From contig OY997596.1 of the NCBI GenBank assembly GCA_963921825.1, positions 38,679,932-38,743,931 on the forward strand: a stretch of 64,000 nt of DNA. The letters are read 5' to 3'. The stretch comes from Erodium maritimum. Lineage: Eukaryota; Streptophyta; Magnoliopsida; Geraniales; Geraniaceae. Numbering within the stretch: the first letter of the stretch is position 1; each line of letters starts with the position of its first letter. The translations under genes were made by a program, and so were the position numbers. The notes below the pieces were generated by a model, which was not told where the DNA came from, ran no database searches, and was given only the letters and a program-made list of their open reading frames with translations. Shown one piece after another: positions 22,719-48,370 of this stretch.

Positions 22719-22741
22719 ATTAATAATAATAATAATAATAA

Positions 22742-23178
22742 AACAATTCATTTATCAATTCTTTATCTTTTGAAAACTACAGTGTCAGTGTGCCTTCTTG
22801 CAGGTTACAGACATCCCTTATGTTGGAGAGAGCAAGTTGGTCAATTAAATTGTTACTGGTAATGGAAGACAAGTAAATGAAAACAGAATGTTAATGAAGA
22901 TGGAATCTATAGACTTGCAGACAAAATTTACATATTAACTTGCAGGAATTTCTGTCTTCTTCTAATTAGGGAACTCAAAGAGGGAATCCAACATGGAAAA
23001 CAAAAAACATCAGGAGCTAAATCTTGAAGAAATATCACAAAGATGAGATAGTTTTCGGGTTCAAATTAAAGCCCAAATTGCTTTACTTATGGCCCATGAA
23101 TATGGGCCCACACTTAAACCCATTGGTTTATGTTGCATAAGGTGTGCTTTTGTTCATCGTCTTGGTGTTTTTGTTGGG
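22742..23178. other. unassigned spacer
   Basis: AT-rich, no coding region or repeat ends recognised. It leads up to the left target duplication of the copia element. Confidence 0.4.
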
Positions 23179-25554
23179 GAATTGGAAGTAAATCTAATAC
23201 CCGAAATCGAATATAAGATTTATCCCGAAAAATGTATGGATTCGTAGGAAAGAGACGACACGATTCAATTTTTAACGAATACCAATATCCTTATTTTACA
23301 ATCCCCAATCCTAGGACCCAGTCGATAAAATTGCGAATGTCTAATACAGAACAATAATTAAAGTATAGAAAATAAACAGAGAACCCAAGATTTTTATGTG
23401 CTTCGACAATGTGCTTACATCCACGAGACAACGACGAACTCCTTGTATTATCCGAGAAAACAACAGAGAATTACAAAGCCCTATTCTCTATCTCTCAATA
23501 TAAATTGGTATTCCACAAAAGAAAATATCAATCTTTCGTTACCAATAATTAGCTCCAAGAATAACCTTTGATATATGTCCTATACACCACAAAAAATCAC
23601 CGAACAGTTAGAAACTTTTGATTATGCTCCTGCTTTACTTGTTGATGCTCAACCATGCAAGAACTACAAACTTTCCTTGGAGTTTTAGTGTTGTATTCAA
23701 GGAAAATTTCATTTTGATACCCTGGCAAACATTTATTTGCAGTATAACACTCTACCTTTTTTTTTTGGGGGAGGGGGGGGGATTAGGTCATATAGTGGCA
23801 AAGTTTGCTATGACTTGAAACCTGTGCCCACCCGAAACCTTAGCCACAGATCTACTTTCTCCCTCATCGGGGACGGTGCGGCTCCGGCCGAACCGTTGCC
23901 GGTGAGGCTTCGCAGTCCTTCCCCCCGTTTCCAACCTCTTGCCCCCCTTCGCCGGTGTCCGAACTCCATCTCCGCCGCTCCCCGCTCCGCCCGTTCTCCG
24001 GCCCTCGACTCCGGCCTTGGTCATCTCCGCCTGTTCTCCGGCCCTCGACTTCGGCCATGGTCTCCGACTCTTCTTCTGATCTCAAGGTCGGATCTGACCT
24101 TACCTCGGCAGATTTGACCTTACCTCGGCAGACCTGGAACTACTCGAAGTTTGTGGGTTCCGGCCACTCCTCCGGCCACCCTCGGTGGAGGACTACAGAG
24201 CTTTCTGGTGCGGTCATCTCGTGTGAAGCAAGGAGGGTTGCTGCCTTTTTCCCGACCTCCGTCTCCGGTCCTGGCTTGCTCCGGCAAGGCTCCTTCAGAT
24301 CTGGCCATTCCGGCAGCTAGAGACTATCCTTGCCTCCTTCGTCTCGTCTCCTGTCTTGGCTTTCTCCGGCACGACTCCTTCAGATTCTGCCACTCCAGAA
24401 GCTGGAGACTCACCCTCGCCTCGTCTCCGGTCCTGGCTTGCTCCGGCAGGCTCCTTCAGATTCGGTCACTCCGGCATCCGAAGACGCTCCCCTTGCCCTC
24501 CCGGTCCTGCTTTGGCTAGGTATTGCTCCTCTCCTTTCTATCAATTGATCATCAGTAGTTTCTGTGCACTCATTCCTTGTGGATGTAATCGTCGCTCTGG
24601 TGCTGGCCAGAGGCGATAACACGGGTCTTGGACCTAGGAACTGTTTTGTCTCGATGATAGTTAGGTTTTGTCCCTTCCGTGTTGTGGTGCTGACCATCGG
24701 CAAATGCAAGATCCTTATCCAGTTCGGAATTTAGGGTTTTGTGGACAAGGAGTTCATGTAAATCCTCCAACATAACTAGGGGCTTCTGGTTTTAGGTTAC
24801 ACTGCGATTTTTTGAGCTTAATGTCTTGCCCCAAATCCGGTTTTGACTAGACTCGAGACGTGAACTTAAAACAGTAAGTTATAAAACAGTTTAATAATGC
24901 AACAAGGTCTCAAAATAACAATTTGCAGCTCCGAAAATCCACACGAGTCACGGCTCGATAAAAACACGTAGTGAAAGAGTTCAAAACAACAGTACGTCTC
25001 TAGACAAGCTAGCCTAGGACCCGCGGAAGCTCCCAAGCATCGAGCATCCAGCTAGTACGAATCCCGCTCAAGACCTGAAACAAAACAAGATAGGGGGTGA
25101 GCTTTCGATCAGTAGGAAAAGTAGTCAGGTTTTTAAAAAACGGTTCAATACCACGAGTAACCGTCCAATTAGGGCATACTAGTAAAGCATAGCTAACAAC
25201 AACGCCCACAGGACGAGTACCAACCACTAATCACCCTCGTAAGACCATAATCACACGTAAGACAACACACAAAGCCAACCAGCACATACAGAGCACACAT
25301 CATAACAACACATAACTTAGCACAACCGTTCCCAACATCACCGACTATCATAGCCCATCCCATTTATATCGTACCGGAACACGAAGCATCGGACCTGACA
25401 TCTTCCCGTCACGTAGAATCGGGGTAACATCCCAGACCGGAAATCCGTCAGTCAGATATATTCCCGACACACAGACTCGGGGCCTCACGCATACCGGACC
25501 GGCACATACCTTGGTCGTACGCCTTCACGGACCACACAACATGCCCGAGGAACT

Positions 25555-26334
25555 TCACCTCAGCGAGCCAGAACTCGCACTTTCTAGGTTGTCGTACAGC
25601 TGGTGAGTACGCAACAAAGTCAACAATGTCCTCAAATGCTCCTCATGTGCCTCCTCACTAGGCGAATAAATCAGAATGTCATCCACGAACACCACGAAAA
25701 ACTGATCTAGGTAGGGTCGGAAAATACTGTTCATCAAGTCCATGAATGCTGCAGGTGCGTTCGTTAACCCGAACGACATCACCAAGAACTCGTAGTGCCC
25801 ATAGTGAGTCGGAAATGTGGTCTTCTCCACATCCTCATCCTGAACCCTCAGCTGATAGTACCCTGATCGAAGATTAATCTTCGAGAAGCACTTTGCTCCT
25901 CTCAGCTGATCAATCAGGTCATCGATCCTCGTCATCGGATAACGATTCTTCACCGTGACCTGGTTCAACTTCCGGTAATCAATGCACATCCTCAAAGATC
26001 CACCCTTCTTCTTCACGAAGAGGGCGGTTGCTCCCCACGGCGAAGCACTCGGTCGGATGAAACCCCTCTCCCGAAGTTCCTCGAGTTGTCGCTTCAGTTC
26101 GATCAACTCGGCTGGTGCAAACCGATACGGGGCCATAGAGATCGGCGCCGTACCCGGGATCAAGTCGATCCTAAAATCCACCTCGCGTGCCAGCGGTAAT
26201 CTTGACAGCTCATCCGGGAAGACCTCCGGGAACTTGCATACCACTCTCGGTAGCTCTCTACTCTGCACGGTCTCCGTCTCATCTCCCATGGTCAACGCAG
26301 ATAGGAGTACTCCGCTCCTACTGCCAAGAGACAC
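25555..26334 (-). pseudogene. gypsy reverse transcriptase part
   Basis: The frame holds the standard gypsy RT blocks: [55 protein letters not shown], then [14 protein letters not shown] with the catalytic VDD. It is the polymerase part of the gypsy element at 24822-33943, read on the minus strand. It is a fossil fragment of a larger pol and not an independent gene. Confidence 0.9.
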
Positions 26335-26539
26335 GTAACGATCGTATCGCCCGATACCACAGTTACCTGTCGACGATAACAGTCGATCGACGCCCGATAT
26401 CTCGTCATCCAGTCCATTCCCAAGATCACGTCAAACGCTGTCATGTCCAGTACAAGCAAGTCACCATAAAACGGCCAATCAGCCACTCGGATCTCATAAG
26501 CCCGACACACGGTACTCAAAACTACATCTCCCGTAACAG

Positions 26540-28070
26540 GGGTATCAAGACACAAAGGTCAACTCAGAAATTCAACCCTCAACCCCAACATACAAGCAAA
26601 AGAAGAAGAGATGAAAGAATGAGATGCTCTAGTATCAAACAAGAAAGATGCCCATGAATTATAAAGCGAACACGTACCCTGTGTAGCCTCATGGCCGGCG
26701 TGACGTCCCTCAGCCCTGGAGCCGGTGACAACATACACCCGCCCCTGCTGTGCCGGGGGTCCGCCTCTCGGAGGTGGTGGAAGTGCCACCTATTGCACGA
26801 CTCTCTGCTTCGGTGCTGGCGTGCTCGCTGCCTACCTCGGAGCTCTCTGCGTCTGAGTCTGACGCTGTTGGAAATCCGGTGACCGCCCAGTCTGCGACTG
26901 CTGCGGTCGCGGGGCCGACACCTCCACGAACCGATCTGGGCACCTGGAAGCGAAGTGTCCTGGCCGACCGCACCGGTGACATAGCGGTGGCCCGACACTC
27001 GACCTCTCCTCAGGTCTACCCGCTGGACGGTCCACTGGTCCGCTGCTCCGTGGACAGTCTCGAGCCAGGTGACCCGTCTGCCCACAACCGTAGCACGTGC
27101 GCCCTCTCATGGAAGGTCCAACAGAGGCCACTAACCCAACCTGTCGCGGTCCTCTCAACGAGGTCTGAGGCTGAAACGATCCCGAGGTCCTCTGCCTCCT
27201 CGGATCCCAAGACTCAGATGACATCAGGGAGCTACTCGATCTCGGCCTGACCTCTGGAACCCTGGCTGACTCACGGAGGCATTACTCTACAGTCAAGGCC
27301 TGATCCACCAGGTCAGAGAACTCTTGGGTCCTCAAAACAGCGACCCGGTCTGCGATCGTAGGGCGAAGCCCTCCCTCGAAGCGTCGACAACGGAGAGGCT
27401 CCGTCTGTACCATCTCTTGTGCAAAACAAGACAAGGAGGTGAACCTCGCCTCATACTCGGACACTGACAGTCCTTCCTATCGCAGCTCCAGGAACTGTTG
27501 GTGCCTGTCGTCCAGCACCGACTGTGGAAAATACTGCTCTAGAAAACGTTGTCCGAACAACACAAAATCGTCTCCCACTCGCGCCTGCTCGCGCCGCCAC
27601 CAGTGGTAGGCCTCTCCCTCCAGATGGAATGCTGTGAACGATACCCTCAGACTACCACTCAGGACTCCTGATGTGTCTAGGTTGTGGGTGATCCGCTCCA
27701 GCCACCTCTCGGCTGCCTCGGGGTCAGACTCCCCGGAAAACACAGGCGTGCCTAGCCTGCGGAAGTCTCGTAGTGTCTGCGTAGTGTAACTGTCGACCTG
27801 AGTAGGTTCCTCGGTGGACGCTACAGTGGCAGCAGGTACAGCCTCCGGTGTCGGAGCTGCAGCCTCTCTTCTGGCAAAGGCAGCTGCCAGACCCTGAACA
27901 GTGCGAGTTAGCTCCTCTAGAGCTGCCGCCTGGGCTGTCTCATCCCTCTCGTGCCCCTCAGCGGGTGCACCCTGGGCACTAGTCGCCCCTGCTGACTCAG
28001 CAGTCGATGGCTGTCCCCGGCCTCTAGCGGGTCGTCTCCTCATATCTCGTGGAACATACGTCGGTTCCAT
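26540..28070 (-). pseudogene. gypsy gag, zinc knuckles and protease region
   Basis: From right to left: a Pro/Ala-rich start (ATG at about 28070), a retrotransposon gag domain (about 27760-27290, with AERWLERITHNLDTSG and EGEAYHWWRREQARV), two CCHC knuckles (CYGCGQTGHLARDC and CHRCGRPGHFASRC, about 27120-26920), and an aspartic-protease-like block (about 26660-26570, SHSFISSSFA). The order matches plant gypsy gag-pol elements with RVP_2-type protease. Broken in several places. Confidence 0.85.
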
Positions 28071-30540
28071 GTCGTAAATCCGTTACACGGATAACGCACA
28101 TGTTCAGTTACTTACTCTTAAAGAAAGACGCGCTTAAAATAACTACGCCACACACAGTCCAACACACTAGTAATCATAGTAATAATATACTCAGTATAGT
28201 ATAGTCACACAATAGCACACAGCAGAGAAGTCCGCACACTTTTGCGTCACATAGATCATATATCCAAACAGCGAAGTTACACACAGTTTCACGCTCAACA
28301 ACAACTTCACACATAAGTCACCCAGACTACAATTTATACCACAAATCAATTCCACAATGTACAACATAGACTTAGTTTCAAGTTCTTAATACTTGCTCTT
28401 TCTGACATAACATTCATGTTGACACCGCGTCGTTACAACCCGGTTCAGGCGTCCCCGAATTACGTTGTAACCACTTGATATCCCCCCCATTCACGTCCAG
28501 CTATAGTGGCCCCTACAGCTGAATCGTGATGGTACATACACTTCAATTTCTGCAGAAAATCGGGCATGACCCGTTCGTAAATTAAGCTAACCATCCGCTT
28601 ATGCGGGACAACCAATCACCATCTGCACACAGCATTCAAGCACAATTACAGCACACATCAATTTATCTCAACTTTACACCTCGGGTCTCAGTAAATTCAC
28701 TCTTACCGCACGACCAAAACCATACTCGGAAAACAGTTTAACTCAAACAATAACCCCAACCACACAGGTTCAAAACACACGGTACTTAGACCGGACCTTT
28801 CACCAACCCGAGACTCTTCCCGTCTCGTTTCTACGGTTAGGATATCTCCGACATGCGTGGCCGACACACAGTAACTTAACGACTCAACTCTATCCACCTA
28901 ATTGACGTACGGTCCGAGGTTTTGAAAAAAAAAACAATTTCAAAATGTAACCTGGCTCTGATACAAAAATGTCACACCCCAAATTCGGTTTTGACCAGAC
29001 TCGAGACGTGAACTTCAAACAGTAAGTAATAAAACAGTTTAATAATGTAACAGGGTCTCAAAATAACAATTTAAAGCTATGAAAATCCACACGAGTCACA
29101 AATCGATAAAAACACGTAGTAAAAGAGTTCAAAACAATAGTACGTCTCTAGACAAGCTAGCTTAGGACCCTCGGAAGCTCCCAAGCATCGAGCATCCAGC
29201 TAGTACGAATCCCACTCAAGACCTGAAACACAACAAGATAAGGGGTGAGCTTTCGCGCAGTAGGAAAAGTAGTTAAGGTTTTGAAAAACGGTTCAATACC
29301 ACGAGTAACCGTCCAATTAGGTCATACTAGCAAATCATAGCTAACAACAACGCCCACAGGACGAGTACCAACCACTAATCACCCTAGTAAGACCACAATC
29401 ACACGTAAGACAACGCACACAACCAACCAGCACATACAGAGCACACAGCATAACAACACATAACTTAGCACAACCGTTCCCAACATCACCGGCTATCATA
29501 GCCCATCCCATTTATATCGTAACAGAACACGAAGCATCAGTCCCGACATCTTCCCGTCACGTAGAATCAGAGTAACATCCCAGACCGGAAATCCCTCAGT
29601 CGGACGTCTTCCTAGCACACAGACTCGGGGCCTCACGCATACCGGACCAGCACATACCTCGGTCGTACGCCTTTCGGACCACATAGCATCGGGGTAATGG
29701 TTAAATCGTCCTCGTCCTTGATGCTCTACACCGACATACTCTCTTAGTGTAAGTATCAGGCCGGACCCACCTCCTCTTGGAACACACAGCAAGAGAATAA
29801 CACGCATCACAAAGCCATAGTTCGACCACGGCATACCGACCGAGCCAACTCACCATAAAACACAAATAGGTCTATCACTCACCCGATCATATCACAACCA
29901 AGGATTCACATCACATCAAACACGGAAGACTCGCCCACATATAGCCACAACATGCTACACCGAGTATATCTTAACACGTTTCTTAATCTTATTGACACTA
30001 AGTCACACATCATGCATCTCAATCAAAGATCATGGCATCAACCAACACGCAACCCTAAGGCTCGACATGCCCATTCTACCAGCACGACAATTTCCCAAGA
30101 ATTGAAAGCGATTAAACTAGTGAATCACATCCCACATGCACACTAAGACTCGTCGGGTTATTAATGTAATTGAAAGCGGTTATTCTAGTGAATCACATCC
30201 TATATGCGAACTAGGACCTTTCCTGTTATTATTATTAACATACATGCATACTAGTAACTTTCCGTAATTAAATCGGTATTCGCTACGTTCCCTACCTCAA
30301 ACGTAAACCAGTCTCAACTCCTAACTGCTGACGACCTGGCTCGCTTCCCCTCCGTCTTGTCACGAAGTCCAAACGTCTCCTCCTCCTCCGATCTCGGGTC
30401 CAAGGTCTTGGATCACAAAACAAGTACTCGAATTAAAACTAATTCAGTTGCAATAAGGACGATAAATAACTAAATTAAGCCCGAAAGTCCAACATAGGCT
30501 AAGACGAGAAATGGGCCGGAAAGAGGCCCAATCCGAGTCT

Positions 30541-30675
30541 GTCACGGTTTGGCTCACGGATCCGTAGGATGAACCGTCACGGTTCTCCTCACGGAACCGT
30601 GGCAGACGCCGTCACGGTTCTCCTCACGGAGCCGTGACACGTTCCGTCACGGTTCCTGTCACGGATCTGTGACAG
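30541..30675. repeat. hairpin-forming GTCACGG repeats in the gypsy LTR
   Basis: Four imperfect units of about 35-38 bases, each with CCGTCACGGTT and, after a short gap, the near-complement CACGGAnCCGTG. Every unit can fold on itself. Confidence 0.8.
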
Positions 30676-32184
30676 TCTGTTACTGTTCATCGTCTTCTTC
30701 TTCCAGCTTCGGGTTTTCACGATTTTAACCCCCAAAACCTCCATTGATGACCTTCCAAAGCTCCAAAAACAGTTCCTAAACGTCTCTACTTCAAAATCCA
30801 TCATGGGTGTTCATCAAAACTCCACAAAACCAAATTAAATTCATCATCTACACTCCTTTTTCACCAAACAACATCATCCAATGTTCACAAACTCAAACCC
30901 AATCAATTTCCTCATCTTTTCCTCAACACCTGTAAAGACCAGCTAAATTAAAAGGAAGTAAAATATTAATTTTATTCTACTGCAGTGTCGTGGGTAGAAA
31001 TCGAGTGGGAAAATTAGATCGACTTCAAAAATAAAAGAAGAGAAAAAAAAAACCAAGGAGAGAACCGGGTCGGATGGACCAGACCCGACCAGGTGACCCG
31101 GCCAGGCCCGACCGACCCAGCACCTCTTCACTTGGGCCGTGAGGCCCGCTTCATCTTCTGAGGCCCAAAGGGGCATCTAGCCCGCATTACTTAAAGAGGA
31201 AATCAGGGTTCAGAAAACTTAATTTCCCATTCGTGTTGCGCACCTCCCTCTTCATCCTCGTTCCTCTCTCGCCGAAACCGACCCCCCTCACCTTCATCAC
31301 CTCGCCGAACTCCCTCTCTCGTTCTCCCCTCGCCGGCGACGCCCCCATCCCCCGACTTCCCGACCTCGCTCTCTACTCCCTTTCCCTTGCCGCCGTCATC
31401 CCTCTCCGACCCTCACTTCCCTTTCGCCTCTCCGTTCCTCCCGGCCGCCTCGCACCTTCTCCGACCAGCTCTGGTCCGACAGCTACGGACTCCGACCTCC
31501 TCTCACGAATCGTCTCTCCCCCAGCCGTCTCTCCTTGACCTCCACGCCTGAGCCCTGTCGTCGTGCCGTCCAGACGAACTCGCCGGCGAGCGCGACAGAT
31601 CTGGGGACGGGATCGTCGGTCTCGTCCGGATCTGAGGCTGAACCGCCGTGCTCCGCCGCTCCCGCAGCCGCCGCCCACCACTGTCCCCTACGGTGAGCCC
31701 CTACCACGGTGAGGTTTTGGCCGGCCGGGCTCGAAACCCGTGCTTCTCCTTCTTTTTTGATTTCTTCTGTCCCGAGCTTTTCTTGGCTCTGTAAAACAAA
31801 ATCACCCGGATCTGGACTTTTTGGAATGGTTTTGTTGAATCCGTAAAATTAAAGAAAATGATTTATACAAAAATCAGATTGGAATAAGAGAAAGTAAAAG
31901 AAGTTGTGTTTAGAACGACAAATCAGTTTTTAATAGGAAAAGGGGTTTTGAAGTAAAAGAAATTAAAGAAATCGGTATTGTTTTAAGACGTTTTGGACTG
32001 TGACCGGTTTTGGTAACTGGAATGACTGAACGAGACGTTTAAAATCAAACTTAGGACGGAACAAAAGCGGATCGCTGAATCGGACCTCGGGATTCGTGCA
32101 TTAGGACCGTGCCTCGGAAATATGCGCCAGTTTTGGCTGGCTTACGAGTTAGAGTCTCGGTAAGTTGCGAGCGTGTATTATTGT

Positions 32185-32450
32185 TGAGTTTTGGGTGGCC
32201 ATGAGTGCCCGTGGGGTTGTTGAACCCGTGTCTTTACCTTTGATGTTTTGGGTGGCCGTGAGTGCCTGTGGGGTTGTTGGACCCGTGTCTTTACTGTTGG
32301 TGTTTTGGGTGGCCATGAGTGCCTGTGGGGTTGTCGAACCCGTGCCTTTGTTGTTTGTGTGTCTTGGGGGGGGGGGGGGGGCGTGAGTGCCTGTGGGGCT
32401 GTTGAGTCCGAGTTTTACTGTTGGTGTCTTGGTGGCCATGAGTGTCTGTG
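32185..32450 (+). repeat. tandem units of the 'ggtggccatgagtgcc' type
   Basis: Five units of about 48-60 bases in the second solo LTR, matching the array at 9415-9960. The G-run lies in one unit. Confidence 0.85.
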
Positions 32451-32614
32451 AGTACTGAACATGTGTTGTTACTGGTTGTTGAACTTTGTTTGTGATTGTG
32501 TTTGGTTACTTGATCATGGTGGAGGTTGTGTGGTGTAGCTAGCCTCCCGAATGGGATCGGGAGAGGTGGAGAGGTTGTGGGCTAGCTCCCCGACTGGGAT
32601 CGGGGGAAGTTGTA

Positions 32615-32790
32615 AGACAGGTCGACCGCCTGAACCGACTGGGATCGGAAAAGGCGAGGGACAGAGAATTTGTAAGACAGGTCGACCGCCTGGACCGACT
32701 AGGATCGGAAAGGGCGAGGGACAGAGAGGTTACTGAGACAGGTCGACCGCCTGGCCCGACTGGGATCGGAAAGGGCGAGATACAGAGATG
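32615..32790 (+). repeat. 61-bp array with GACAGGTCGAC, second copy
   Basis: Three units with the same consensus as at 10043-10286, starting near 32617, 32676 and 32737. A shorter, different repeat ('cccgamtgggatcggg') precedes it at 32540-32610. Confidence 0.85.
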
Positions 32791-35618
32791 GTTACTGAGC
32801 AGCTGTTGTGTGGGGTCTACTTTACGTGTACGAGTGTTGAGTCGGTTGAGGAAAGTGTCAGTGGGTGTGTGTCAGTCGGAGTACTTGAGTTGGGGATGGT
32901 GATCCCCGGTGTTGAGTTTGTTGTTGGTGTTACCGGCATTGTCTACTAAGTATGCCGTAGTCAGTCTGTTATCCGTGGTGGTGAGCGAACGCTCACCCCT
33001 AGCTGCTTTTCCTACAGGTATCGGTCGCAGGTTGGACTAGGTGAGCTTCTGAAGCTTGAAGAGCTAGGAGCGGGATTCTGGGTTTATTTTGAGTCTAGCG
33101 ACGGATACCATACTTTTGTCCACTTGTTGGGACGTGTTTTAAGTTGTAAATATTATTTTGTTGAACAAATGGTGTTTTCAAAGTGGTTTAATGTAAAAGG
33201 TTTCAAAATGTTTTATTATTTTAAATGTTCGCGTCCCGAGTTCGGTTTACTGAAATTGGGGCGTGACAACACCCACGAATAAAAATTGATAAAAACGAAA
33301 ATAGAAGATGGATTTACCTTGAGGATGAAGATTAGATGAAGAAACAAGGAAAAATGGGGAGATTTGGGTCACAAATAGGTTCAAGACCTCTCTTTTCTCC
33401 TCTTTTCTTCTTCTCCTAGCTTTGAGAGCTTCTTCTTCTTTCCCTTTTGGTGAATTTCGACCAACACTAAATGTTTGGGCTGAAATGCTCCCAATTTGGG
33501 TCATATATCCTAAAGGGAGAAACCCCAAACTACCCCCATGCTCACATGTCTCCCAAGCCCATTCTTTTAGGGTTAAAATGGTCATTATGCCCTCGTTCTT
33601 CTCACCCAAGCCAAAAGGGACACTTGTCCAAATGGGGACCACTTCTCCTCTTAGAAAAACCAGCACAAAGGGTTTTAAATTAAATTAGTCCTTAATTAAG
33701 CGAGGGTTGACCCAGAATTGACCGACATTTGACTTTTCACAACTTACAGTCAATTGAAAGGAAACGGCCTAACTAATCTAACCGTAACGACGACTAAGTT
33801 TTTTGGGCACCGGAAAGGTCCCGAATGACTCCCGGAGTCATCAGTTGACTTTTCCGGCAAGAAGTCAACTTTCGCCAAAAACCTCCGGTTCGATCGGGAT
33901 CAAACGGTAGGCACGTTAGGGTATTCAGACTCCTTATTTTACAAATTTTGCTTCATGTTAGATGAATTCAGTTGATAGAACTTGTTTTTTCGCAGTTAGG
34001 GTTCCTATTGTTGTACTGTTGTTGGCTTGTTTCATCCTGCGTGCCCTCTCTTAGATTCCAGGGTCTGTGCACCCTTACTTGGGCTCTCGGGTCTGTGTAC
34101 CCTTACTTTGCTCCCGGGTCTGTGTACCCTATCTTTGGCCCTTTGCAATCTTTAGGATGATTGCTCTTTTTTTGTGTAATCTTTTCTTCCTCCGAAGAGA
34201 ATAATTTAAAAATGCCTTTGCCGATAAAAAAAACACTCTACCTTGTTTTTTTTGCATTTTAATACCCTGATAAACATTTATTTTCACTTTCATACCCAAC
34301 TATTAACTTTTCATCCAAAATGAACGGAAGACGGTCATGTGTTTTGCACATGATCTTGTTTTTTTCAAAAAAAATACCCAAAACACCCAAAATTATGTAT
34401 AATAATTAATTCTAAAATATTATTATTCATAAATATGTGAAGTATATAAAATATTAATTATAAAAAAATCGGATTTCAGTTCAAATGTATAAGTTTTATT
34501 TTTTGAATTATATAAAAATATGATTTTTTAAATATATAAAAAGTGATTTTTTAAATATTTTTTTGAAATAAATCTGATTTTTTTGAATTATATAAAAATA
34601 TGATTTTTGAAATATATATAAAAACTGGTTTTTAAAATATTTTTTAAAATAAATCAGATTTTTTGAATTATATAAAAATATGATTTTTTTCAATATATTA
34701 AAATTTGTTTTATAAATATATAAAAACTGAATTTTCAAAACTGGTAGGTTTTGAAAATTCGATTCGTCTTAGGGGGTATTTTGGACGGAAAGTTAACGGT
34801 TGGGTATGAAAGTGAAAATAAATATTTTCCAGGGTATTAAAATGAAAAAAAAGCAAAGATATTATACTGCAAATAAATATTTGTCAGGGTATCAAAATGA
34901 AAATTTCCCATGTACTTAAAAGAACAATTAATGTTTTAATCGGGACCATATAACCACCAAAATGGATGTTATGCTACAACCTAGTACCTTTTTCCCACAA
35001 AAGACACAATCGAGACAATGCATTACATAGGCAGCCAAGACTCTTTGCTCGTTGATTATGCACAACCACCCGACAAGACCAATATCATGTTCTTGCTCCA
35101 TATAGCACAACCACACACGCATCAGCCACCTTGCTACTCTTGATCTCTCACCTCCCTTGTAACGTGGGGTACAACCACACAAAGAGGAAATCAAAAAAAC
35201 CACCAACACACCAATTCTTGATTCTTGGAACACAACACACCAAGGAGATATTGCACAAATGATACTCTCTCAAGCCTGTTACAGTGAACTTGAAGATCTC
35301 TGAAGAATAACCCAAGAACTCCAAGGTATGTGTGCATCCTCATCATTCTCTGAAGAACATCAACAGTCCAAACCTGTTTCAATTCTATCTTTTTATTCTC
35401 ACCATCGGCCCACACATTATTCAGCAAGGAAGCAATCTATGTTATTTCTGGTCTCTGGTCATCCTTGCCAACAGAAATAGCTTTTTGAGCCACTTGGTTT
35501 CTGAATTTCTTTCATCTATATCAGCAGAGCTAACATCTTTGTTAGCTTTGGTCTCTGATCTCCATTTGTCAAGGTGCCTCTGATATCAGTTTTACTGCCT
35601 CTCTATTTGTTGGATCTC

Positions 35619-37850
35619 ATGGGAAGATCCATAGCCTTGGGATCAAGACTCTCAGTCCAAGAACTTATAGGAGGATATTCTGAAGACAGACTTATTCAGC
35701 CACAATATAAGATCACCATTCCTGCTAGAAAAAGGAAAGGGATCAAGAAGAGAGGAAGGAATAGGAACTACTCTGCATCATCATCATCATCCTCAGATCA
35801 AACGCAAGCATATTCTCTGGGACGGCATACTAAATTGTTGGATGAACAAAAAATGTTCTATGACAAGTATTTTAAGCCTGTAAATTCGTATACTGATCAA
35901 ACCTCGAATCTTCCAAATCCTCAATGGAGATCTACCACTCAGAATTTTGGGAAGAATCCAAGTTCAGCAGTAGGAGCAACCACAAATCATCAACCCCAGG
36001 AGACATCTTCCTCAATGGGTTTCCCTTCTCCAGGTTTTGAAAATGTCCAACCTTTCTCCAATCAAAAAACTATTCACTGCTTTTGTCCTTAATATACCAC
36101 CTGTTGCACAAGTCTCTTGGCTTAAGAATGTCTTTGAAGGAGCGTCTGGGTTTTGCATGGCTATGGTTGCACAAAAACCCAATAGGAATAGAAAATGGTA
36201 CGGTTTCATATTCCTAGACTCTGAAGCCAATCTGGATGCAGCTATACAACACTACAATGGAGCTTACTTTTGGGGTTTTAAGCTTTTTGTTACAAAAGCT
36301 TGGAATAAATATACAAATGTTATTCATCTACCTTCTTTTCCATCCCAGAGGTTTCATTCTGATCTCAATCTACCCATGGCTTCTGGACAATACAAGAACT
36401 ATGATGATTATCTGCATCAGGGCTCCATTGTTTCTGCACATTCTCATTTTCTCTAGTATTCTTTTCTGGCCATCTCCTATTTGAATCTCTCACTAGAAGC
36501 ATTGCAGAGAGAAATTTCCCTCCAAGGAGTCTCTGAAATTCAAATTAAGTCCTTAAGAAATAAGGACATGCTAGTACATTGTCCTGATGATTCCTTCCAT
36601 ACTGAACTACTAGCAGATGAGGGTAATTGGCTTCAAGAGTGGCTCATTTGTTTACCTACTCTATCCAAGATTTTCTTGAATGGAGGGAGATTTGTCTGGC
36701 TATCTATTCAAGGGGTTCCATACCATGATTAGGGTGAGGAATCCTTTCAACCTTAGTGGCAGATTTGGGGCAGTGAATCTTTACTCATCTTATCACTAAG
36801 GCTGGCTCTAAAGTAGACATGGCCTATGTGCTGATATATACCAACACACTCAAACCTATTTCTGAGGAGGTTAACTTAACTCTTGGAAATGATTCATTTC
36901 AAGTTTACATCTCATCCTTGCATTTATCAGCTCTACCTCCCTTACATGCTTGTCATCCTACCCCAGCTACTTCTACTCCCTCTCACTCTCTAAGCAACAC
37001 TAATTCAGATGAGGATCCTCTCAACTCCCAACCTATGGGCTCTGAAACTTTCAAAGTTGTTACTCACCTACTCAATGAATCCATTAAGGAGCATTTAACT
37101 CCTAGTGAAGAGGAAAAAGAATTTTCACCAACTTCTGATAAGGTAGGTAGCTTTGAACCTGTAGTTGTTTGTCATTCTGAGGAGAACAGGGAGAATGTTT
37201 TGGTTAAGGTTGTTGATGATCATTCTATGTCTGCTGAGGCATTTATGTATTTGGAAGCTATTTTGGAAAGAATCCCAGAAGTTATGGCTTCAACACCGAT
37301 AATTTTAGGAGATGGATGTGATCTTAATACTTTTGATTCTGGGGCTGATGAGCTTAATACTCCATTCACCACTCCTCTCCATCATACTCAGTTGCGGCAT
37401 TTAGATTTGGAGTTGGCTATAGTCCAGGACACTTATGACTCTTCTGATCAGGCCACTTTAATTCCCAACTCAGGAGAAAGTAGCAAGCCAAGCTCAATCT
37501 CTACAGTGCCAGTTCAGGTTTTGGAGGGAACTAATAGCACTCAAATTATTTCAATTTTGGAACTGTAAGCCTCTCAGCCTTTGAAATTTGCTCCTGCTCC
37601 TCTTAGTAGGGTTTCCAAAGCCTCTGTAGAAACTATGTCCACTAATCTCACAGCTAATACCCAGCTAATCACATCATCACTGTTGCAAAGTATAAAAGAG
37701 GAGGGGCATTTAATGCTGGGAAGGGTTCAAGGGGAACATGTCTTGGAAAAGGATTCTTTTGAAGCCGTCAATGACCAAGGCCAAGAGTTTATAGCTACTC
37801 AATCTCTCAAGGGGACCACAAGGACTGGATTTAATCCTAAGTAGAGAGGA
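35619..37850 (+). pseudogene. LINE ORF1 with RRM-like domain
   Basis: It starts MGRSIALGSRLSVQELIGGY, then a basic Lys/Arg-rich patch (about 35720-35770), then a different frame (36037-36456) with an RRM-like fold: FVLNIPPVAQVSWLKNVFEG, then YGFIFLDSEANLDAAIQHYN and FKLFVTKAW. After that a DUF4283-like stretch (36481-36730, IQIKSLRNKDMLVHCPDD, WLSIQGVPYH) runs into a long Ser/Pro/Glu-rich tail (36819-37850). RRM-type ORF1 is known in part of the plant L1 clade. Frame changes and stops make it non-functional. The tail resumes beyond the solo LTR at about 39721-39902. Confidence 0.75.
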
Positions 37851-38037
37851 TTTACACCCTGTTAATTCTCAACATCCTTCATCCCCTTTGTCTCCTCACT
37901 TTTTACAAAAACAAATATCAGAAGTGGCAGATCTTATGGGGCTCAATGCTGAGTCAATAAAGCCATCACTCTCAGTCATCCCAAAAGCAAAAAAATAAAT
38001 CCTCCAAAACCAATCCTAGCCATACCTATGAGACTAG

Positions 38038-39715
38038 TGTTAGTCTTAGTGCCCGTAGTTCAATCCTAAATGTCCAAATGTATATATCATCGTTAGAAAT
38101 AAAATTAAAGCGGTTTTATATTACTTATGTGTTGGACTAATATATCGATGTGTGCTCTGATCTATTCCCACAATGCAAATAGAACCATAGATCGAGATAG
38201 ATCACACTCGATGGGTCCCTAGTCAACAAAGCTTCACTAGAAGCGACTAGTATGAAAGATGGCTCTTTATGGCTTACGTTCTGTTAGTCATTGGAATGAG
38301 ATTCCGGAGTCTGATCATAGATATCATGTGGGACATGATATTGGACGACCCGACATGAATATGTGTCATAGATCAAGTCATGAACATATTCATTGTCGTA
38401 GCTTGTCATGTATCCTTAGACCAAGGAGTATTTGTGATCGTTATGCAGTAAACAACTGAGTTTGACCTGAGCCTAACGTTGTCTGTAACAAGGCTTCCAT
38501 AACAGCCAGGATTGGCTTGGGGCCGGACTGCATAACTGACACGAAAGACGGCTAAGGGATTTATCCCTCATACTACGGTATGGGAAAGATATCGGTTCTT
38601 GGCCGCTTGATCGAGAGTGACTGAAAGAATAGCATGGCCTTGCACATGATATTGGGTATGATATATTCAGTCATCTCACATATCAAGGAATTGAGAATAA
38701 TAAGGATGACGACTCTATGTCTTATCTCAATCAGGATATCGGAGATAAAAGGATAATGGCAGGGATGACGGAAAGGTTAGAATCGACAGGGTTTATTCGT
38801 TATGCTGTATCAGGCAATACTAAAGTCTCGTTAATTTCCACTTAAATAGGATCAAGTAAAATGGGATTTTACGTTGATCAATTGACATGCATAAACCTAA
38901 GGGTCACACCGGAGGGTGAAACTCATTGACACATTTATGGAGAATGGCCAAAAGGGAGTTGTCTCGGGACATGACCAAAACTGGGTTTAGGGTCTTGTGC
39001 TCGTAAGTGAATAGGACTTTACGGATCAAGACAAGGCTTGGAGTCTTGGGATTGATCGTGTCGGATAATGTTGGACATTTCTGGTATGGAAGGCTTGGAG
39101 GCGATGAGCGAATCACGGGACCTCATTGGAAATGGCCACATTCTAGGTTCCAATAGGCCCATGAAAGGCCCATGCAACCAAGGCCCATGGAACTAATTAA
39201 TCAAGTCTTGATTAATTAGTATTAAGTAAGCAAGACAAGGATTAAGGTGTTGGTGATTCACCACCCCATCTTGTCTAGCCATACTTTTTCCTATTTACAC
39301 CTTACTTGTCACCATACTTGTCCCATGCTTTTAGTTTGATAAGTTGATGGAGTTTTTTATGTTTAAGTCATCTTTTTTCAACATAACAAACACAAGACAA
39401 GAATAGGAAACACAACTCTCCCTCCACTCCCTTGCAATTTCGGCCAAGGCAAGCTCCCACCTCCATTTTTGTGTTCTTGAGTCCTCAAAGAGAAGAACTA
39501 CATGGCTTCGATTCCCATGTGGATACGTGTGCGTCTTGGAGACTCAAGCCAATCATTCGTTACCCGGTGTTCTTGTTTTGGTAAGAAATATTGCTGAGTT
39601 TTTCTCTTGTGAATCCATTCTTTGTTAGTTGTTTCATGGTTTTAATCGTCTCTTGGTTTTCATTGATTTTCCGCTGCAAGTTGGTTCATCTCCAACCCTA
39701 CCTCGAGACCCAACA
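38038..39715 (+). mobile_element. solo LTR (1.68 kb) inside the LINE
   Basis: Begins TGTTAGTCTTAGTGCCC, ends CGAGACCCAACA, with the exact 5-bp duplication ACTAG on both sides (38033-38037, 39716-39720). It is the reverse-orientation relative of the LTR at 15366-16986, recognisable along its whole length. It interrupts the tail of the LINE's ORF1 and is therefore younger than the LINE. Confidence 0.9.
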
Positions 39716-40028
39716 ACTAGATCAAAACTAAAAGAAGACAAGAAGGGAGTTGGATTTGTGGAGTCTGGTAAGAAGCTTCTTCCCCAATTTTTGAATGAAG
39801 ATACAGAAGCCAAGAGGGCTTGGGGTTTTGGAAAGGAAATTGGACTCAAAGCAAGATTCTCAGAAGATTTAATACTTCATCACCTTACATCCCTGGAAGA
39901 TTAGCAAAGTTCTAGTGTGGAGTTGGAGGAAGGATCAGAAGATGACTTTGTAGACTTGGAACAAGAGTCAGACAGTGAAGCTCTAGTGAGTAACAAACTC
40001 ACAAACATTCCCTCCTCTGACTGAATTA

Positions 40029-43000
40029 ATGAAAATCCTCTCATGGAATGTGAGAGGGATCTCCTCAAGGAAAAATAGGAGAGGTCTTAATAACTTGTTG
40101 CATAAGCAATGGCCTGGTTTCATCCTACTCCAAGAAACAAAACTAGATCCATTCCCTCCTTACTTTCTAAGAAATTGTGGTCTATCAGTAGGATGGGAAC
40201 ATTCTTTTATAAAATCCTTAGGAAATTCTAGAGGTATGTTATCAGTTTGAAAATCAAATTAATTCTCAGCTATTGATGTTAAGAAGATCAAAGGGGCTAT
40301 TATATGGATAGCGAACATAGAATCTGTTAATTTTCTATGATGCATTGTAAATATATATACTCCGAACTCTAACTCTGGGAGTAAAGCTCTTTGGAAGGAA
40401 ATTTTTAAGAAGCTGAAAGTGTTTCAAGATGATTATCTTTTTATCTAGGGGGGCTTCAATGATGTGCTAATTTCTGATGAGAGGTCCAACCAAAGAAGAG
40501 GGGTTTTTGATATGGCTCATCTTAATGATTTAGTCTCTAACCTCAGTCTTATGGATCTTCCTCTTGAAGGAGGGAAATTTACTTGGTTTGGACCAAACTC
40601 AAGGGCTTCTAGATTAGACAGGTTTCCTTATCTCACCTGATCTACTCACAATCTTTAACTCCCTCTCCCCATCCTGCCTACCTAGGATAATCTCATATCA
40701 CATGCCTCTTATATTAATTGACAATCAAGTTCATTGGGGGCCTAAACCCTTCAAGTTCCTAAACATCTGGGCTGAAGATAGAAGGTTCCTACCCGCAGTA
40801 CAAAAATTCTGGTTATCATACAAAGTTGAGGGACTCCATACTTTATTCTATGGAAGAAACTTAATCTTCTCAAGACTGATCTTAAAGCTTGGAACTCAGA
40901 GGATTTTGGTATTCTGGATTCTCAAATAGCCTCTCTAATTAAAGAAGTGCATCAACTTGATACATTGGCAAAAAGTAGAACCTTAACACCAGGTGAATGC
41001 TCAAATAGAGGCTATCTTCAAGCTACTCTCATCCAGAAACATAAGCAGCAATCAAAATTGTGGAGCCAAAATGCAAGGAAAAAAGGTTCTATGATGGAGA
41101 TAAGGGCTCAAAATACTATCACAGGATTGCAAACTTCAACGGTTCAAGCGGGAAACTAACTCAAATCATGTACAAAGGAAAATTTATATCCGAGCCATAA
41201 GAAATTAAACTTGCAGCAGCTGAACATTTCAAAGAAGGATTCTCTTTTAGTGAAAATGAAGATTTATGTCTGAATGACTTGCCTTACAATTCTATTACTC
41301 AAGATCAAGCTTAGTGGTTGGAAAGGCCTTTTGAGGAAGAGGAAGTTATGCAGGCACTAATGGCTTATAATTGGGACAAAGATCCTGGTCCTGATGGCTT
41401 CAATCTCCATTTCTTTCAGATTTACTGGCCAATTATTAAAGAATATCTCATGAATTTTATCTCATTCTTCCATCAAATAGTCCAGCTTAGGAAGGGGTTA
41501 AATTCTTCATTCATAGCCCTAATTTCTAAAACCTCAGCCCCTCTCACTTTTGCTGATTTCAGACCAATAAGTTTAATGAGGGGGTCCTTACAAAATCATC
41601 TCAAAACTTCTCTTCTTCAAACTCAAATAAGTCATCAGCAACTTGATTGGGGAAGAGCAATCAGCTTTTATCAGTGAAAGGCAAATAACAGATGGAATTG
41701 TGGTGGCCTCTAAACTAGTCCATTATCTAAAAAAATCACATTCAAAGGCCTTCATCTTTAAAGCTGATTTTGAGAAGTCCTTTGATAAGGTAAACTAGAT
41801 GTATGTGATGCAACTCCTATCTAGAATGGTCTTTGGAGTCCAATGGAAGCTTCTGATGATGTCTTGCTTTATAGCTTATGTCTCAATGTTGATCAATGAG
41901 GACTTTCAATTGAGCAGAGGAATCAGGCAAGGTTGTGCTCTTTCCCATCTTATCTTTGTAATTGTTGCTGAAGGGTTAAATCAAATTATGAGAGCATCAA
42001 TCCAAGCTAATTTTCTGAGAGGTATTCAAATGAATCAGTTCAGTCCTGAAATATCACATCTACAATTTGCTTATGACTCCATATTCTTTATCAAAGCTGA
42101 AGGTAGAAGCATCTTATGTCTCAAATATGATCTCTATATTTTTTATCTAGCTTTTGGATTAGCAGTCAATTACTCCAAATCAGCTCTATTTCCCTTTAAT
42201 ATCTCTAAGCCTGCAAAATTGGAGCTACTATCAGATCTTGGTTTCTTAGAAGATGCAATTTCCTTCAATTATTTGGGATTCCCTCTTGGAGATAATCCAA
42301 AAAGATACTCAACTTGGGAGCCTATTCTCAAAAAATTCAAATCAGCTTTGGGACTATGGCAAGCCAAATTACTCTCCTTTGGAGGCAGAATTACAGAGCA
42401 CCTAAAGGGGTTATTAAGTCCATGGAAATATGGAAAAGGAAATTTCTATGACATGGGAAACCAAAAGCACATACATTCAGCAAAGTAAGTTGGAACACAG
42501 TCTGGAAAAGTAAAGAAGAGGGTGGACTAGGAATCAAAAATCTTACCTATATGAATATCTCCCTCCTCTCCTAGTGGTGGTGGAGATTTTCAGAACTGTT
42601 TGGGATCAAAGGTCTCTCGTGAAAAATTGGTAATGGCCAAAGGATATTATTCTGGGATGATTCTTGGTGGGGAGAAATACCCTTTATACTCCTTTATCCC
42701 AGACTCTATGTTTTAACACAATCAAAAAAGTTGCTTGTCTCTGAACCAAAGTCTTATTCCTCTTGGGATCTGAACTTCAGAAATTTTACTCGTAGAAGGG
42801 TCACTATGATGATGGAACTCATGTATTACTTCATTGTGATAGGGTCTGGCAAGTCTGGTCATTGGTGTTAAAGTGGTGGGGGGTCATTTGGGTAATACCT
42901 GGTAACATTCAAGCCCATCTTTCCACATGGCCTTATATGCTTTCAAGACTGAGAATTTCCCCATAGACTAATCTTGCTCAGATCATTTACTGGCAGATTT

Positions 43001-43174
43001 GGCTTTCCAGAAACGAGTTATTTTTAAATGGATCCTATCTCTCTCCTTCAGAAATTTTTGATAAAATTGTGACTCAGGCCTATAGTTGGGAAGTGGCTAA
43101 TTTCCAAAGCAATGGATTGTATTTCTCCTTTCTCTCCTGGAAAGAAACTCCCTTTTCTTTTTGTATATTACCTT
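40029..43174 (+). pseudogene. LINE ORF2: endonuclease, reverse transcriptase, zf-RVT
   Basis: ATG at 40029 opens an apurinic-type endonuclease (MKILSWNVRGISSRKNRRGL, QETKLD; later GGFNDVLISDERSN, where the usual GDFN lacks its Asp). The reverse transcriptase spans about 41318-42470: DKDPGPDGFNLHFFQ, FADFRPISLM, RGIRQGCALSHLIFVIVAEG, and the catalytic box reads FAYDSIFF, where FADD is usual. SFNYLGFPLG follows as expected. A zf-RVT region with HVLLHCDRVWQVWSL lies at about 42820-42890, and the coding likeness ends at a TAG near 43174. Several stops and frameshifts interrupt it, so no active enzyme is possible. Confidence 0.88.
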
Positions 43175-44446
43175 AGATTTGTTGATGGGAGTGGGAGTCT
43201 GTTCTCTTCTGATTGGCTGTTGTGACTTCTTTGCTTCCTCTAGGGCGGGGTTCTAGGGAGGGTTTGGGTGGGGCTGGGTAGTGTGGTGATTTTGGTAAGG
43301 TCCTTCATGGCTGTTGCTTTTGCTTGTGCATGGGTCTTCTTCTTCTCCTCCCCTTCTTGTTTCTCTTTTTTCTCTTATGTGTCTGGGTAGCTCATCTCTA
43401 GGTTTGGGTGTTTTTGTTGCTCTCTCTCCCTTTGTCCGGTTTGTTTTCTGTTGCAGGTTGGCCTTTCACTTGGTTTGCACTTGAGCTCTCTCCTGTAACT
43501 CAAGATGGAGCATCTGCATTTGAATTATTGGCTCATTTCCCAGCCTTAGTCATGTTCTGCATCAACACATTCATATTGTTGGTTACTTGGACAGCAAGCA
43601 ATCTAATATGGAACAATTTCAGCACTGTTTTGTTACATCTCCTCCTCACCAACACTTACTCATCTTCTGCAACTCACTTCATGTTGAAACACTTACTCAG
43701 CAAGCAACTTTTACCTAGCGTATCAAGGTGATTGGCAAACAACACAACAAGCTCAAGTACGGGTCTTGATCGTCTCATCGATTCTTTGGGACAACCTCAA
43801 CATAACTCAGTTCCTTGAGCAGCAAGCATTACACATTTACATCTCCACAGTTACTCAAAGACTTAAAACATAAAGGCTCTATATCCTTGGGAGTCAAGCA
43901 TGCCTATCTACACCCACAAGTTGCATCTAAAACTACTTTGTTGAGTTTCTTTTTGTTTGTTCTCTGTTTAGTTGTTTTCCCCTTCTCCTACCCCTTATAA
44001 TCAACATATGATTGATTGGGGGTTGGAGTTGGGTTGTATTTGTTCCCTCTTTCTCCTCAAAAGAGGCTTATCAATCTAAATTTGTCTTGTCGATAAAAAA
44101 AAACACGCCAAGGATATGACAAAAGAAAAAAAAGTTATTTATTTTTATCTTACCTTGTAGCTGCCCTTAAAGACACAACTACCACCAATATGTTTTTGGT
44201 TTCTCTCTACAGCCACCCCGGAATTGGAACCATTTTAGAATAGAACCCTGTTGTTCCTTTTTCCATAGACGACAATGAGATATAGGCTTAAGTGCGGGCC
44301 TTGATCATGGGCCCAAAATAAGAATTGTTGGCTTCCAATTTGGAGCCGAATTCTACAATCTCCACCGTGACGACAAAATGCATAAAAGCTTCATCTACTC
44401 GTCGTCCTCAAGACCCTACCCCGAAGGGTCTTGCTCCTGTGGGGCA

Positions 44447-44725
44447 TCAACATCGAGAAATCTTGATCAAGTCGAGACAACACTCTAACTTGACCACAAG
44501 AACCTTTTCTTCCTCACCAACAACATTATAATCATTAGGATGTGACATATATATGTCATCCTCCAAACCTTCATGCAAGAATACAGTCTTGATACCAAGT
44601 TGCTCGAGCTCTAAATCAAACTTTGTTACCTGTGCTAATAGGACTCGGATTGAAGTGTGTTTTACCACCGGAGCGAAAAACCTAATTAAAACCCACACCT
44701 TCTTTCTGTGCATACCCTTTAACAA
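44447..44725 (-). pseudogene. copia reverse transcriptase part
   Basis: Minus-strand frame with FFAPVVKHTSIRVLLAQ, then FDLELEQLGIKTVFLHEGLE and DIYMSHPNDY, the start of a copia-type RT. It belongs to the copia element at 23184-48365 and lies near its 3' LTR. Confidence 0.85.
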
Positions 44726-44989
44726 CCAATCTTTCCTTGTACCTTATACTCGTACAACTACCCTTGGAATTTGGAATCCCGTCTTTGATTGTGAAAACCC
44801 TCTTGCACCTCATCGACAATTTTTCCTTAGGAAGTGTAACAAGATCCTAAGTATCATTCTTATGAAGAAATGACATTTCCTCATCCATGACGTCCTCCCA
44901 CTCACTTTTTTGATCATCACACAAAGCATGCTTGTATATGGTAGGAACATCATAATCATTCACTAGAAAATCACAACTTGCGCCTTCCT

Positions 44990-46460
44990 CATAGCCGAGT
45001 CTCTATGGTGCTTATCTGACCCTGGATTTTCTTCCTACTACCAAAGACGGTGTTTCAATCTGATGAATTTTTTGTTGTGTAAGGGTCTCGTTCCCATCAA
45101 TAGGAACATCATCAGCTATAACTGCCTCATCAGGTACTACCTCTGAAGAACTACCTGCTTGAGAACTAGAACTAGGAGCTTCAAGCTCCACTTGATGATA
45201 ATCTTCTTTATCTTCATTATAGCTATCACATCTCCAAATGAGAGATCCATCCTTTCATCTTTCACACTTTGCATGTAGCAAAGCCTGCTCATAGAAAGTA
45301 ACATCTTGGCTAATCACAAACTTCTGAGTTTCTGGGCACCAAAACTTGTACCCCTTTACATTTTTAGGATAACCGAGAAATATAGCCTTCTTGGCCCTTA
45401 CTCCAACCTATCCTCTTTAACTTGGTAATAAGTCGGACAACCAAATGCTCTTAAGTTAGAATAATCAGAAGGAATACCAGATCATACCTCCATAGGAACT
45501 TTGGACTCAATAGTTGATGAAGGAGAGCGCTTAATCAAGTAGCACGCCGTATTTATTGCCTCAGCCAACCATATTCTTCCCAAACCTGCATTGGACAACA
45601 TGCACCGTGCTCTATCTAACAGGGTACGATTCATCCGCTCTACTACCCGTTCTATTGTGGTGTCTTTCTCACCGTGAAGTGTCTCTTGATGTCATGCCTT
45701 GCACAGAACTCCTTAAGGGGAGCCTTAGTGTACTCACCACCATTGTCAGATCTCAAAACCTTGATCACCCTACCCGTCTACTTCTCAATCATATCCTTAC
45801 ACTTCTTGAAAACATCCCTTACTTCATTTTCAAGCTTCATGGTATATATCCATACTCTCCGACTGAAGTCGTCGATAAAAGACACAAAATATTGGGAACC
45901 ATCCTTCGATGTAACTCTAGAGGGCTCCAAACATCATTGTGGATATAGTCCATAATCCTCGTGGTGTTGTGAATAACGTCATTAAAAGTGATCCTACATT
46001 GTTTCCCATATACACAGTTCTCATAGAAATCAAGCTTTTCCATCTTGTCACCGCCAAGCAAGCCACGCCTGCTTAAAGTCTTAAGTCCACCCTCACCTAC
46101 ATGCCCTAGATGCATGTTCCATAACTGTGTGCGGACCAAGCTCTTCTCATCAATAATCGTGGAGACTATAGCTCCACCCTCAACAACATTACTTTGAAGA
46201 AAATAGAGATTGGCATGCATAATTGCAGATAGTAGCAACCTGTCACCATGATAAACGTTGCAATAACCATTCTCACCAACGTACATGTAACCCTGAGCTT
46301 CAAGTACCCCAAGAGAAATCAGTACTCTTGCAAGATCCGAAATATGACGTACCTCGGTACGCTGTCTACATGACCCATCTGCTAGCTGAAATCTAGCTAT
46401 ACCAACATCTAACATCCTGCATGATCGAGAATCACCCATATAAACCGAGCGACATTCCAC
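44990..46460 (-). pseudogene. copia gag-pre-integrase and integrase region
   Basis: The frame at 45837-46460 holds the gag-pre-integrase block (LWNMHLGHVGEGGLKTLSRR) and the start of the integrase core. Further left, other frames give the integrase end (about 45420-45250, KGYKFWCPETQKFVISQDV, the chromodomain-like tail typical of copia). This is a fossil part of the copia element, broken in several places. Confidence 0.82.
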
Positions 46461-46673
46461 CTCGTGATAGGTGGTGAACTAGTAACGAATCAGCCACAAG
46501 TGATATGAATCCCATGTATCCAACAACCACCCATCATACACATGATCACTGGAACCCACTTTCAAAACATGCGTTGATTCATCGTCGATATGAATATCCT
46601 CAACTATCTCTGATGCCTCAACCACATTTTCCATGTCTTTCCATGTATCTTGTTTGGTGCGTTTATCCTTATA

Positions 46674-47300
46674 CTATGGGCAATCCTTCTTGTAATGACC
46701 TGTTTGCTTACGCTTGTAACAATTAACCTTAGACATATCTCTTCCTCTCGATTGAGATCGACTTCTTCTATTGTTGTTGTACCTCTTGTCTGAATTTATT
46801 CTCATTGTAACCGAGAGATCATGTGCTAGAACGTCCTCGCTCACAACACTCTGCCTAGAAGCCTTTGCAAGTATAGACTGATTGATATCACTATACAAAA
46901 GCTTCTCCTTGTTCATCATAATCATCTGATGAACAAATGGCTCCCATTCCAACAACAAAGAAATCAACAAGAATAAAACCTTCTGACTATCTTCAAACTT
47001 ATCTCCCAAGGTAACACAATCCGAGTACAAGCACTCAAACCCGGTAATATGGTCATTCATAAGCCTACCTGATTGTAGCTTGAAAGTGAAGAGCTTCTTT
47101 TGCAGGTACATCACACTCATCTGATCATTTTGAAGGTACATAACCTGAAGCTTATACCAAATACCCTTTGCGGTCGTCTCATCAGCAAAATTGTAAGCCA
47201 TATTCCGAGAAAGACACAAACGGATCGTACTACAAGCTTTTTGCTCCATCTTGTTCCATCTCTCAAGTTGATAACCCACTGATGGTTTATCTCCCAACAC
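46674..47300 (-). pseudogene. copia gag (UBN2) with zinc knuckle
   Basis: Frame of about 208 codons: a UBN2-type gag body (ACSTIRLCLSRNMAYNFADE, GIWYKLQVMYLQ, KKLFTFKLQSGRLMNDHITG) followed by a basic Arg/Ser tract and a CCHC-like knuckle (VNCYKRKQTGHYKKDC). It sits where gag should be, close to the primer-binding site and 5' LTR of the copia element. Confidence 0.87.
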
Positions 47301-47495
47301 ATCAAATTGATCTAAACTAACAAGAATGTTTTAACAATCCATCTTCCAAGCTTTAAAATTGTCCGTCCATTAAATCGAAGAATATTGAACCCATGGACCT
47401 TCACATAACCCTCATCCCGAGATGTGGAAGTTCTATCAGACATATTCGCAAACACAACGATAACATTAATAACTAATCAACTAGCCAAACCAGGA

Positions 47496-48365
47496 TGCAC
47501 TGATACCACTTGTAGTAAATCTAGTACCTGAAACCGAATATAAGATTCACCCCGTAAAATCTATGGATTCGTAGAAATAAACAGACACGATTCAATTTCT
47601 AACGAACACCAATATCCTGATTTTCTAGCCCCCGATCCCAAGACATGGTCTATAAAATTGTGAATGTCTAATAAGAGAAAAATACAAAACAATAACTAAA
47701 GTGCAGAAAATAAACAGAGAAGCCAAGATTTTTACGTGGTTCGGCAATGTGCTTACATCCATGGGGCAACGACGAGTTCCTTGTATTATCCGAAAAATAA
47801 TTAGAGAATCAGAAAGCTCTATTCTCTATCTTTCAATACAAATTGATATTCTACAAAAGAAAAAATCAATCTTTCGTTACCAATAATTAACTCCAAGAAT
47901 CACCTTTTGATATTTGTCCTATTCGCTAGAGAAAATCACCAGACAGCTGGAAGCTTTTGACTTTGCTCTTGCTTTACTTGTTGATGCTCAACCATGCAAG
48001 AACCTCTAGCCTTCCTTGGAATGTTAGTGTTGTATGTATAAGAACAATTAATGCTCTTAACCGGGACCAAATAACCACCAAAATGGATATGATGCTGCCA
48101 CCTAACATCTTTTTCCCACAAAAAAGGATTGATATGCATTTACATAGGCAACCAAGGCTCTTTACTCGTTGATTATGCACAACCATTCCACAAGACCAAT
48201 ATCATGTTCTTGCTCCAGACAGCACAACCACACACGCATCAATAGAACCCTACTGGTCCTTTTGCCATGGATGACAATCTCAATGAGATATGGGCTTAAG
48301 TGTGGGCCTTGATCATGGGCTCAAAATAAGAATTGTTGGGCTCCCATTTGAAGTCAAATTCTACA
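47496..48365 (-). mobile_element. copia 5' LTR and primer-binding site
   Basis: The LTR is 47511-48365 (855 bases), with ends TGTAGAATTTGACTTC and TTTACTACA on the minus strand. The adjoining TGGTATCAGTGC pairs with an initiator Met-tRNA 3' end. The split partner LTR is 23184-23700, 34911-35251 and 44118-44357; it is somewhat longer than this copy. GAATT follows at 48366-48370. Confidence 0.87.
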
Positions 48366-48370
48366 GAATT

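Follow-up and report, generated by a model that had tools for sequence, protein, structure and literature searches.

How many insertions built the block of interleaved repeats at positions 23179-48370, and in what order did they arrive? To answer this, we compared the 64,000-nucleotide stretch analysed here (the window; C9:38679932-38743931) with the 763-Mb, 40-contig genome to which it belongs. The elements and genes seem plant-like. Every comparison lies within this one genome, genome copy counts are lower bounds, and the searches scored best candidates only. We found seven insertions in ~25 kb, with a deepest chain of five levels. The main chain runs from the left LTR of a copia element through a MITE, a short retroposon and a gypsy element to a solo LTR (solo LTR 1), while a side branch leads from the same copia LTR through a long LINE to a second solo LTR (solo LTR 2). 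Younger elements interrupt older ones, and continuous, unfilled counterparts were present in the same genome for 6 of the 7 insertions, the long LINE being the exception. The sequence-only reading of this locus had proposed the five levels and the side branch, and both were upheld by the element boundaries and these unfilled counterparts. Our comparison adds three features to that reading: a degraded target duplication of the long LINE, the lost duplication of the gypsy element, and the unfilled paralogous site of the copia element. The order of insertion is secure because it follows from topology, an insert being younger than the element that it interrupts. We consider it highly probable that the locus is an ordinary cluster, produced by seven successive insertions in the order set out below and by later deletions.

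The outermost element is a copia retrotransposon on the minus strand (23184-48365), with GAATT touching both outer LTR ends (23179-23183 and 48366-48370). That these five bases bracket a single copia of ~25 kb, as had been claimed, was borne out by a paralogue of the right flank on contig C3 (locus L074), where the left flank (23034-23183) and the right flank (48366-49603) are continuous and overlap by exactly GAATT. Since this unfilled site carries GAATT once, the motif is the copia target duplication. For comparison, when positions of the window were paired at random, five of five bases agreed with a frequency of 0.0013, and seven or more of nine with a frequency of 0.0020. The right (5') LTR, TGTAGTAAAT...TACA, spans 47511-48365, and the left (3') LTR, also on the minus strand, is broken into three pieces at 23184-23691, 34911-35258 and 44105-44357. 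In self-comparison by BLAST and in pairwise alignment, 23187-23696, 34911-35124 and 44239-44357 aligned to the right LTR (47514-48365), and the left LTR opens with GG in place of the TG of the right LTR. The strand follows from the right LTR adjoining a primer-site-like GCACTGATACCA at 47497-47508, next to the LTR start, which we take to be an initiator-Met-like primer site. In addition to two direct LTRs and a 5-bp target duplication, the element has an internal region (44358-47510, minus strand) with matches to gag, gag-pre-integrase and Pol beta-barrel in broken frames (Retrotran_gag_2, 1.4e-20; gag_pre-integrs, 2.3e-10), as in copia-type elements; the pol domains rve and RVT_2 are carried by a relative, L059. 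An alternative LTR start at TGTTGGGG (23172), with GAATT internal to the element, was rejected on two grounds: the right LTR begins with TGTAGTAAAT at 47511 by the primer site, and the C3 paralogue has the GGGAATT stretch as unfilled flank. A copia of an internally deleted lineage would have entered next to a gene with a PLAT domain, in minus-strand orientation, creating GAATT, and its left LTR would then have been hit twice, by a Mutator-type MITE and by a full-length L1-type LINE.

The long LINE occupies 35259-44104 on the plus strand, and relatives set both of its edges: its start is also the start of L064 and L066 (L065 begins at 35391), and 38 of the 41 other matches end within 44102-44108. 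It resembles L1-type LINEs in having a reverse transcriptase (41799-42485; RVT_1, 4.9e-5, but at 23.6 bits under the Pfam cut-off of 29.6), an A-rich 3' tail and a long target duplication, the latter degraded (about 35234-35262 and 44102-44126). This imperfect duplication of ~25 bp, AACACACCAAGGAGATATTGCACAAATGA / AACACGCCAAGGATATGACAAAAGA, was equalled in 2 of 2000 shuffles. The first BLAST comparison suggested a blunt insertion at 35124/44239 without target duplication, an idea that was rejected when the relatives' start at 35259 and end near 44104 exposed the degraded duplication. An unfilled LINE site was not found in the copia LTRs compared, the right LTR having no such stretch and neither the LTRs of L059 and L061 (best E 0.029) nor L084 giving a significant match. 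Within the LINE lies solo LTR 2 (38038-39715, plus strand), with ACTAG on both sides (38033-38037 and 39716-39720, counted on the printed sequence). LINE copies at L079 and L080 are continuous across this site, and L080 has ACTAG once, in agreement with the proposal that the LINE received a solo LTR. Among 40 other matches to solo LTR 2, 10 are near full length at 93-94% identity, and a relative 81% alike lies on the opposite strand at 15429-16986. A different LTR element may have entered the LINE and, as proposed below for solo LTR 1, shrunk to a single LTR.

The right copia LTR contains nothing that corresponds to the two parts of the left LTR bordering the LINE (35125-35258 and 44105-44238, ~245 bp), and it probably lost them. 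It is possible, if unlikely, that the left LTR instead took up these ~245 bp as a separate insert in which the LINE later landed, the right LTR having lost nothing; the side branch would then lie three levels below the copia element rather than two. Such an insert would agree with the absence of the stretch from the right LTR, with searches of this genome finding no other copy of it, and with its having no significant similarity to the LTRs of L059, L061 and L084. However, neither terminal repeats nor a target duplication of its own was seen at its edges, which share at most one A, and relatives differ so much from one another in the sequence and length of the LTR middle that matches to this stretch are not to be expected. 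We therefore favour a deletion in the right LTR.

The MITE in the left copia LTR comprises the outer part of its left terminal inverted repeat (23701-23758) and, beyond the inserts that it contains, the remainder with the right terminal inverted repeat (34245-34910). The inverted repeats (23701-23763 and 34845-34908) are 87.5% identical in self-comparison, and the flanking TGTATTCAA (23692-23700) and TGTACTTAA (34911-34919) agree at 7 of 9 bases, the match reported earlier. On its own this duplication is weak, as 56 of 2000 shuffles reached 7 of 9 when the end positions were allowed to shift; the right copia LTR, which is continuous where the left LTR breaks, provides the unfilled site and confirmed the placement. 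Of the nine other MITE copies with both ends, six carry duplications that match at 8 or more of 9 bases (L024, L030 and L033 fall short; a tenth locus, L025, has no right end and was dropped). This pattern, together with the long terminal inverted repeats, fits a Mutator-type MITE, and we tentatively place the element in that class on these grounds.

The left terminal repeat of the MITE is itself interrupted by a retroposon of ~1.4 kb on the plus strand, which is bounded by an exact 13-bp duplication, AACACTCTACCTT (23746-23758 and 34232-34244), and consists of a 5' part (23759-24821) and a 3' part with an A-rich tail (33903-34231). The unfilled site of the retroposon is supplied by the other inverted repeat of this MITE, the right one, which is continuous at the corresponding position; the retroposon relatives L067 and L068, also ~1.4 kb, are continuous. 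This element had been described as LINE-like. Its insertion into the MITE and the 13-base duplication stood, but the three ORFs scanned gave no Pfam match at E 1, and thus no LINE coding domain, nor was there a match at E 1 between this element and the long LINE. The duplication and tail would fit L1-type movement, and the element that entered the MITE terminal repeat appears to be a short non-coding retroposon. Its relatives start at ~23804-23808, the 45-50 bp that directly follow the duplication not being common to them. This interval (23759-23807) holds a T-run and a G-run, and L068 also has unshared bases there.

The break within the retroposon is filled by the gypsy element, all parts of which lie on the minus strand: a left LTR (24822-25542), an internal remnant (25543-28969), and a right LTR in two pieces (28970-30930, ending in ACACC, and 33274-33902). 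Three retroposon copies (L067, L068 and L015) run through the site unfilled, consistent with the earlier claim that a gypsy element entered the LINE-like one. The remnant contains an RVT_1-type reverse transcriptase, CCHC zinc knuckles and Retrotrans_gag. Because the left LTR stops at ~25542 and gives way to pol, with RVT_1 in 25555-26331, a deletion has taken the remainder of this LTR together with the 3' portion of pol. The right LTR ends in ...GATCAA, whereas all three other copies extend ~18 more bases to TTACA, and the adjoining target duplication is lost as well: the two ends carry CTTAA and TCAAA, the intact 5-bp duplication having gone with the right terminus. Deletions subsequent to the gypsy insertion into the short retroposon would thus have cost the gypsy element its right terminus and a large part of its 3' half.

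Solo LTR 1 (30931-33268, plus strand) interrupts the right gypsy LTR between two copies of ACACC (30926-30930 and 33269-33273), and gypsy LTR copies at L077 and L078 are continuous across the site, as expected from the proposal that a solo LTR had entered there. Like solo LTR 2, it is flanked by an intact 5-bp duplication. An LTR element may have entered the gypsy LTR, after which its two LTRs would have recombined with each other and left a single one. Identity to relatives is uneven along solo LTR 1 (94-95% over its positions 271-1190, 87-91% over 1202-1875, and 96-98% over 1875-2338, the last 464 bp). Capture of host sequence, an idea raised by this unevenness, was rejected; LTR subfamily variation is enough, since L072 matches 31095-32120 together with an LTR-like stretch of the window, and the first bases of solo LTR 1 are common to many copies. 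Two of its relatives lie in opposite orientation ~2 kb apart elsewhere in the window (8353-10868 and 12937-14248), with a minisatellite-like inner part.

Because the region is repetitive and its junctions are known from the assembled sequence alone, part of the nest could in principle be a misjoin of separate repeat copies. We regard this as very improbable, since the duplications abut the element ends, the junctions of 6 of the 7 insertions match unfilled counterparts elsewhere, and the window is internal to a 62.6-Mb contig.

The two LTR comparisons gave divergences in the order of nesting, as had been proposed. The copia LTRs differ at 113 of 838 sites (13.5%; K2P 0.151 +/- 0.015, 95% bootstrap 0.123-0.183) and the gypsy LTRs at 59 of 720 (8.2%; K2P 0.087 +/- 0.012, 95% bootstrap 0.065-0.111), with copia exceeding gypsy in 9999 of 10000 bootstraps and the order reversed in 1. 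Alignment thus bore out the by-eye value of ~8% for gypsy, while that of 1 in 5-6 for copia (17-20%) was too high. CpG-context transitions account for 11 of the 113 copia differences versus 15 of the 59 gypsy differences, and so are not the source of the gap. In the portion of their survey of 15 plant species available to us, Jedlicka et al. (2020; PMC7251063), who likewise compared outer with inner LTR divergence, report 1042 of 4126 nested LTR pairs (25%) in the opposite order. The nest described here sits with the majority in the expected order, and a reversal, which the sequence-only reading had named as a refutation, would not overturn a nest; by the same figures, the agreement in LTR ages is supportive only, and weakly so.

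Nests of this type are already known. As far as the consulted excerpt of the report on wheat chromosome 3B goes, nested retrotransposon clusters there reach 8 layers and 301 kb, and automated pipelines recover nested insertions in the tens of thousands (PMC4290129). Those clusters resemble the present one in having elements within elements, rebuilt by joining split copies, and differ in size (5 layers and 25 kb here) and in that ours was compared with unfilled sites elsewhere in its own genome. The REANNOTATE analysis of maize and wheat regions similarly took nesting order as insertion order and found it consistent with LTR divergence, according to the parts of that paper at hand (PMC2672092); the unfilled paralogous site of the outermost element is an additional yardstick here. 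The biology is ordinary, many plant genomes being filled by nested clusters. In our judgement, the internal evidence is better than for most nests owing to the unfilled sites, and the value of the locus is that of a worked example, a verified case on which nest-reading software and LTR dating can be tried. It can serve as such because an unfilled paralogous site anchors the outermost insertion, unfilled relatives do the same for most inner ones, and the two LTR pairs yield independent divergences.

The paralogue on C3 extends further than the copia flanks, as window positions 19820-20557 also match L074; this segment adjoins and partly overlaps a PLAT/ATS3-type ORF (20077-20508). Flank and paralogue differ at 72 of 527 sites (K2P 0.155). 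The duplication that left the C3 copy would have preceded the copia insertion. The reverse order, in which copia predates the duplication and was lost from C3, is extremely improbable: although the flank K2P of 0.155 is close to the copia LTR value of 0.151, so that little time may separate the two events, the C3 site shows a single GAATT and no LTR remnant, and LTR retrotransposons are not expected to be lost in a way that restores the target precisely. We claim no date for either event, since substitution rates may differ between the flanks of genes and silenced elements.

The copia element that inserted after this duplication carries no complete reverse transcriptase. Between 44497 and 44502 it is missing ~675 bp present in L059, where they fall within C-terminal RVT_2 sequence and the remainder of the ORF. 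Three of five relatives (L060, L061 and L063) have the same gap; the other two do not, L059 having 675 extra bases at the site and L062 about 4 kb. Because the gap is common to the window copy and L060, L061 and L063, the window copia stems from a lineage that carried this deletion and spread. We suggest, quite tentatively and as a rather doubtful scenario, that this lineage lacking part of its reverse transcriptase multiplied, presumably with enzymes borrowed from L059-type relatives, and inserted here soon after the C3 duplication. If so, the locus would offer a rare local clock, with the divergences of the paralogue, the outer LTRs and the inner LTRs all read from a single set of sites.

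Between the PLAT-proximal segment and the copia flank, ~2.5 kb of the window (20557-23034) are missing from the C3 paralogue. This interval has minus-strand ORFs, one with a weak zinc-knuckle match, and a repeat, perhaps a further LINE fragment, whose end lies at ~22634 and whose copies are as much as 95% alike.
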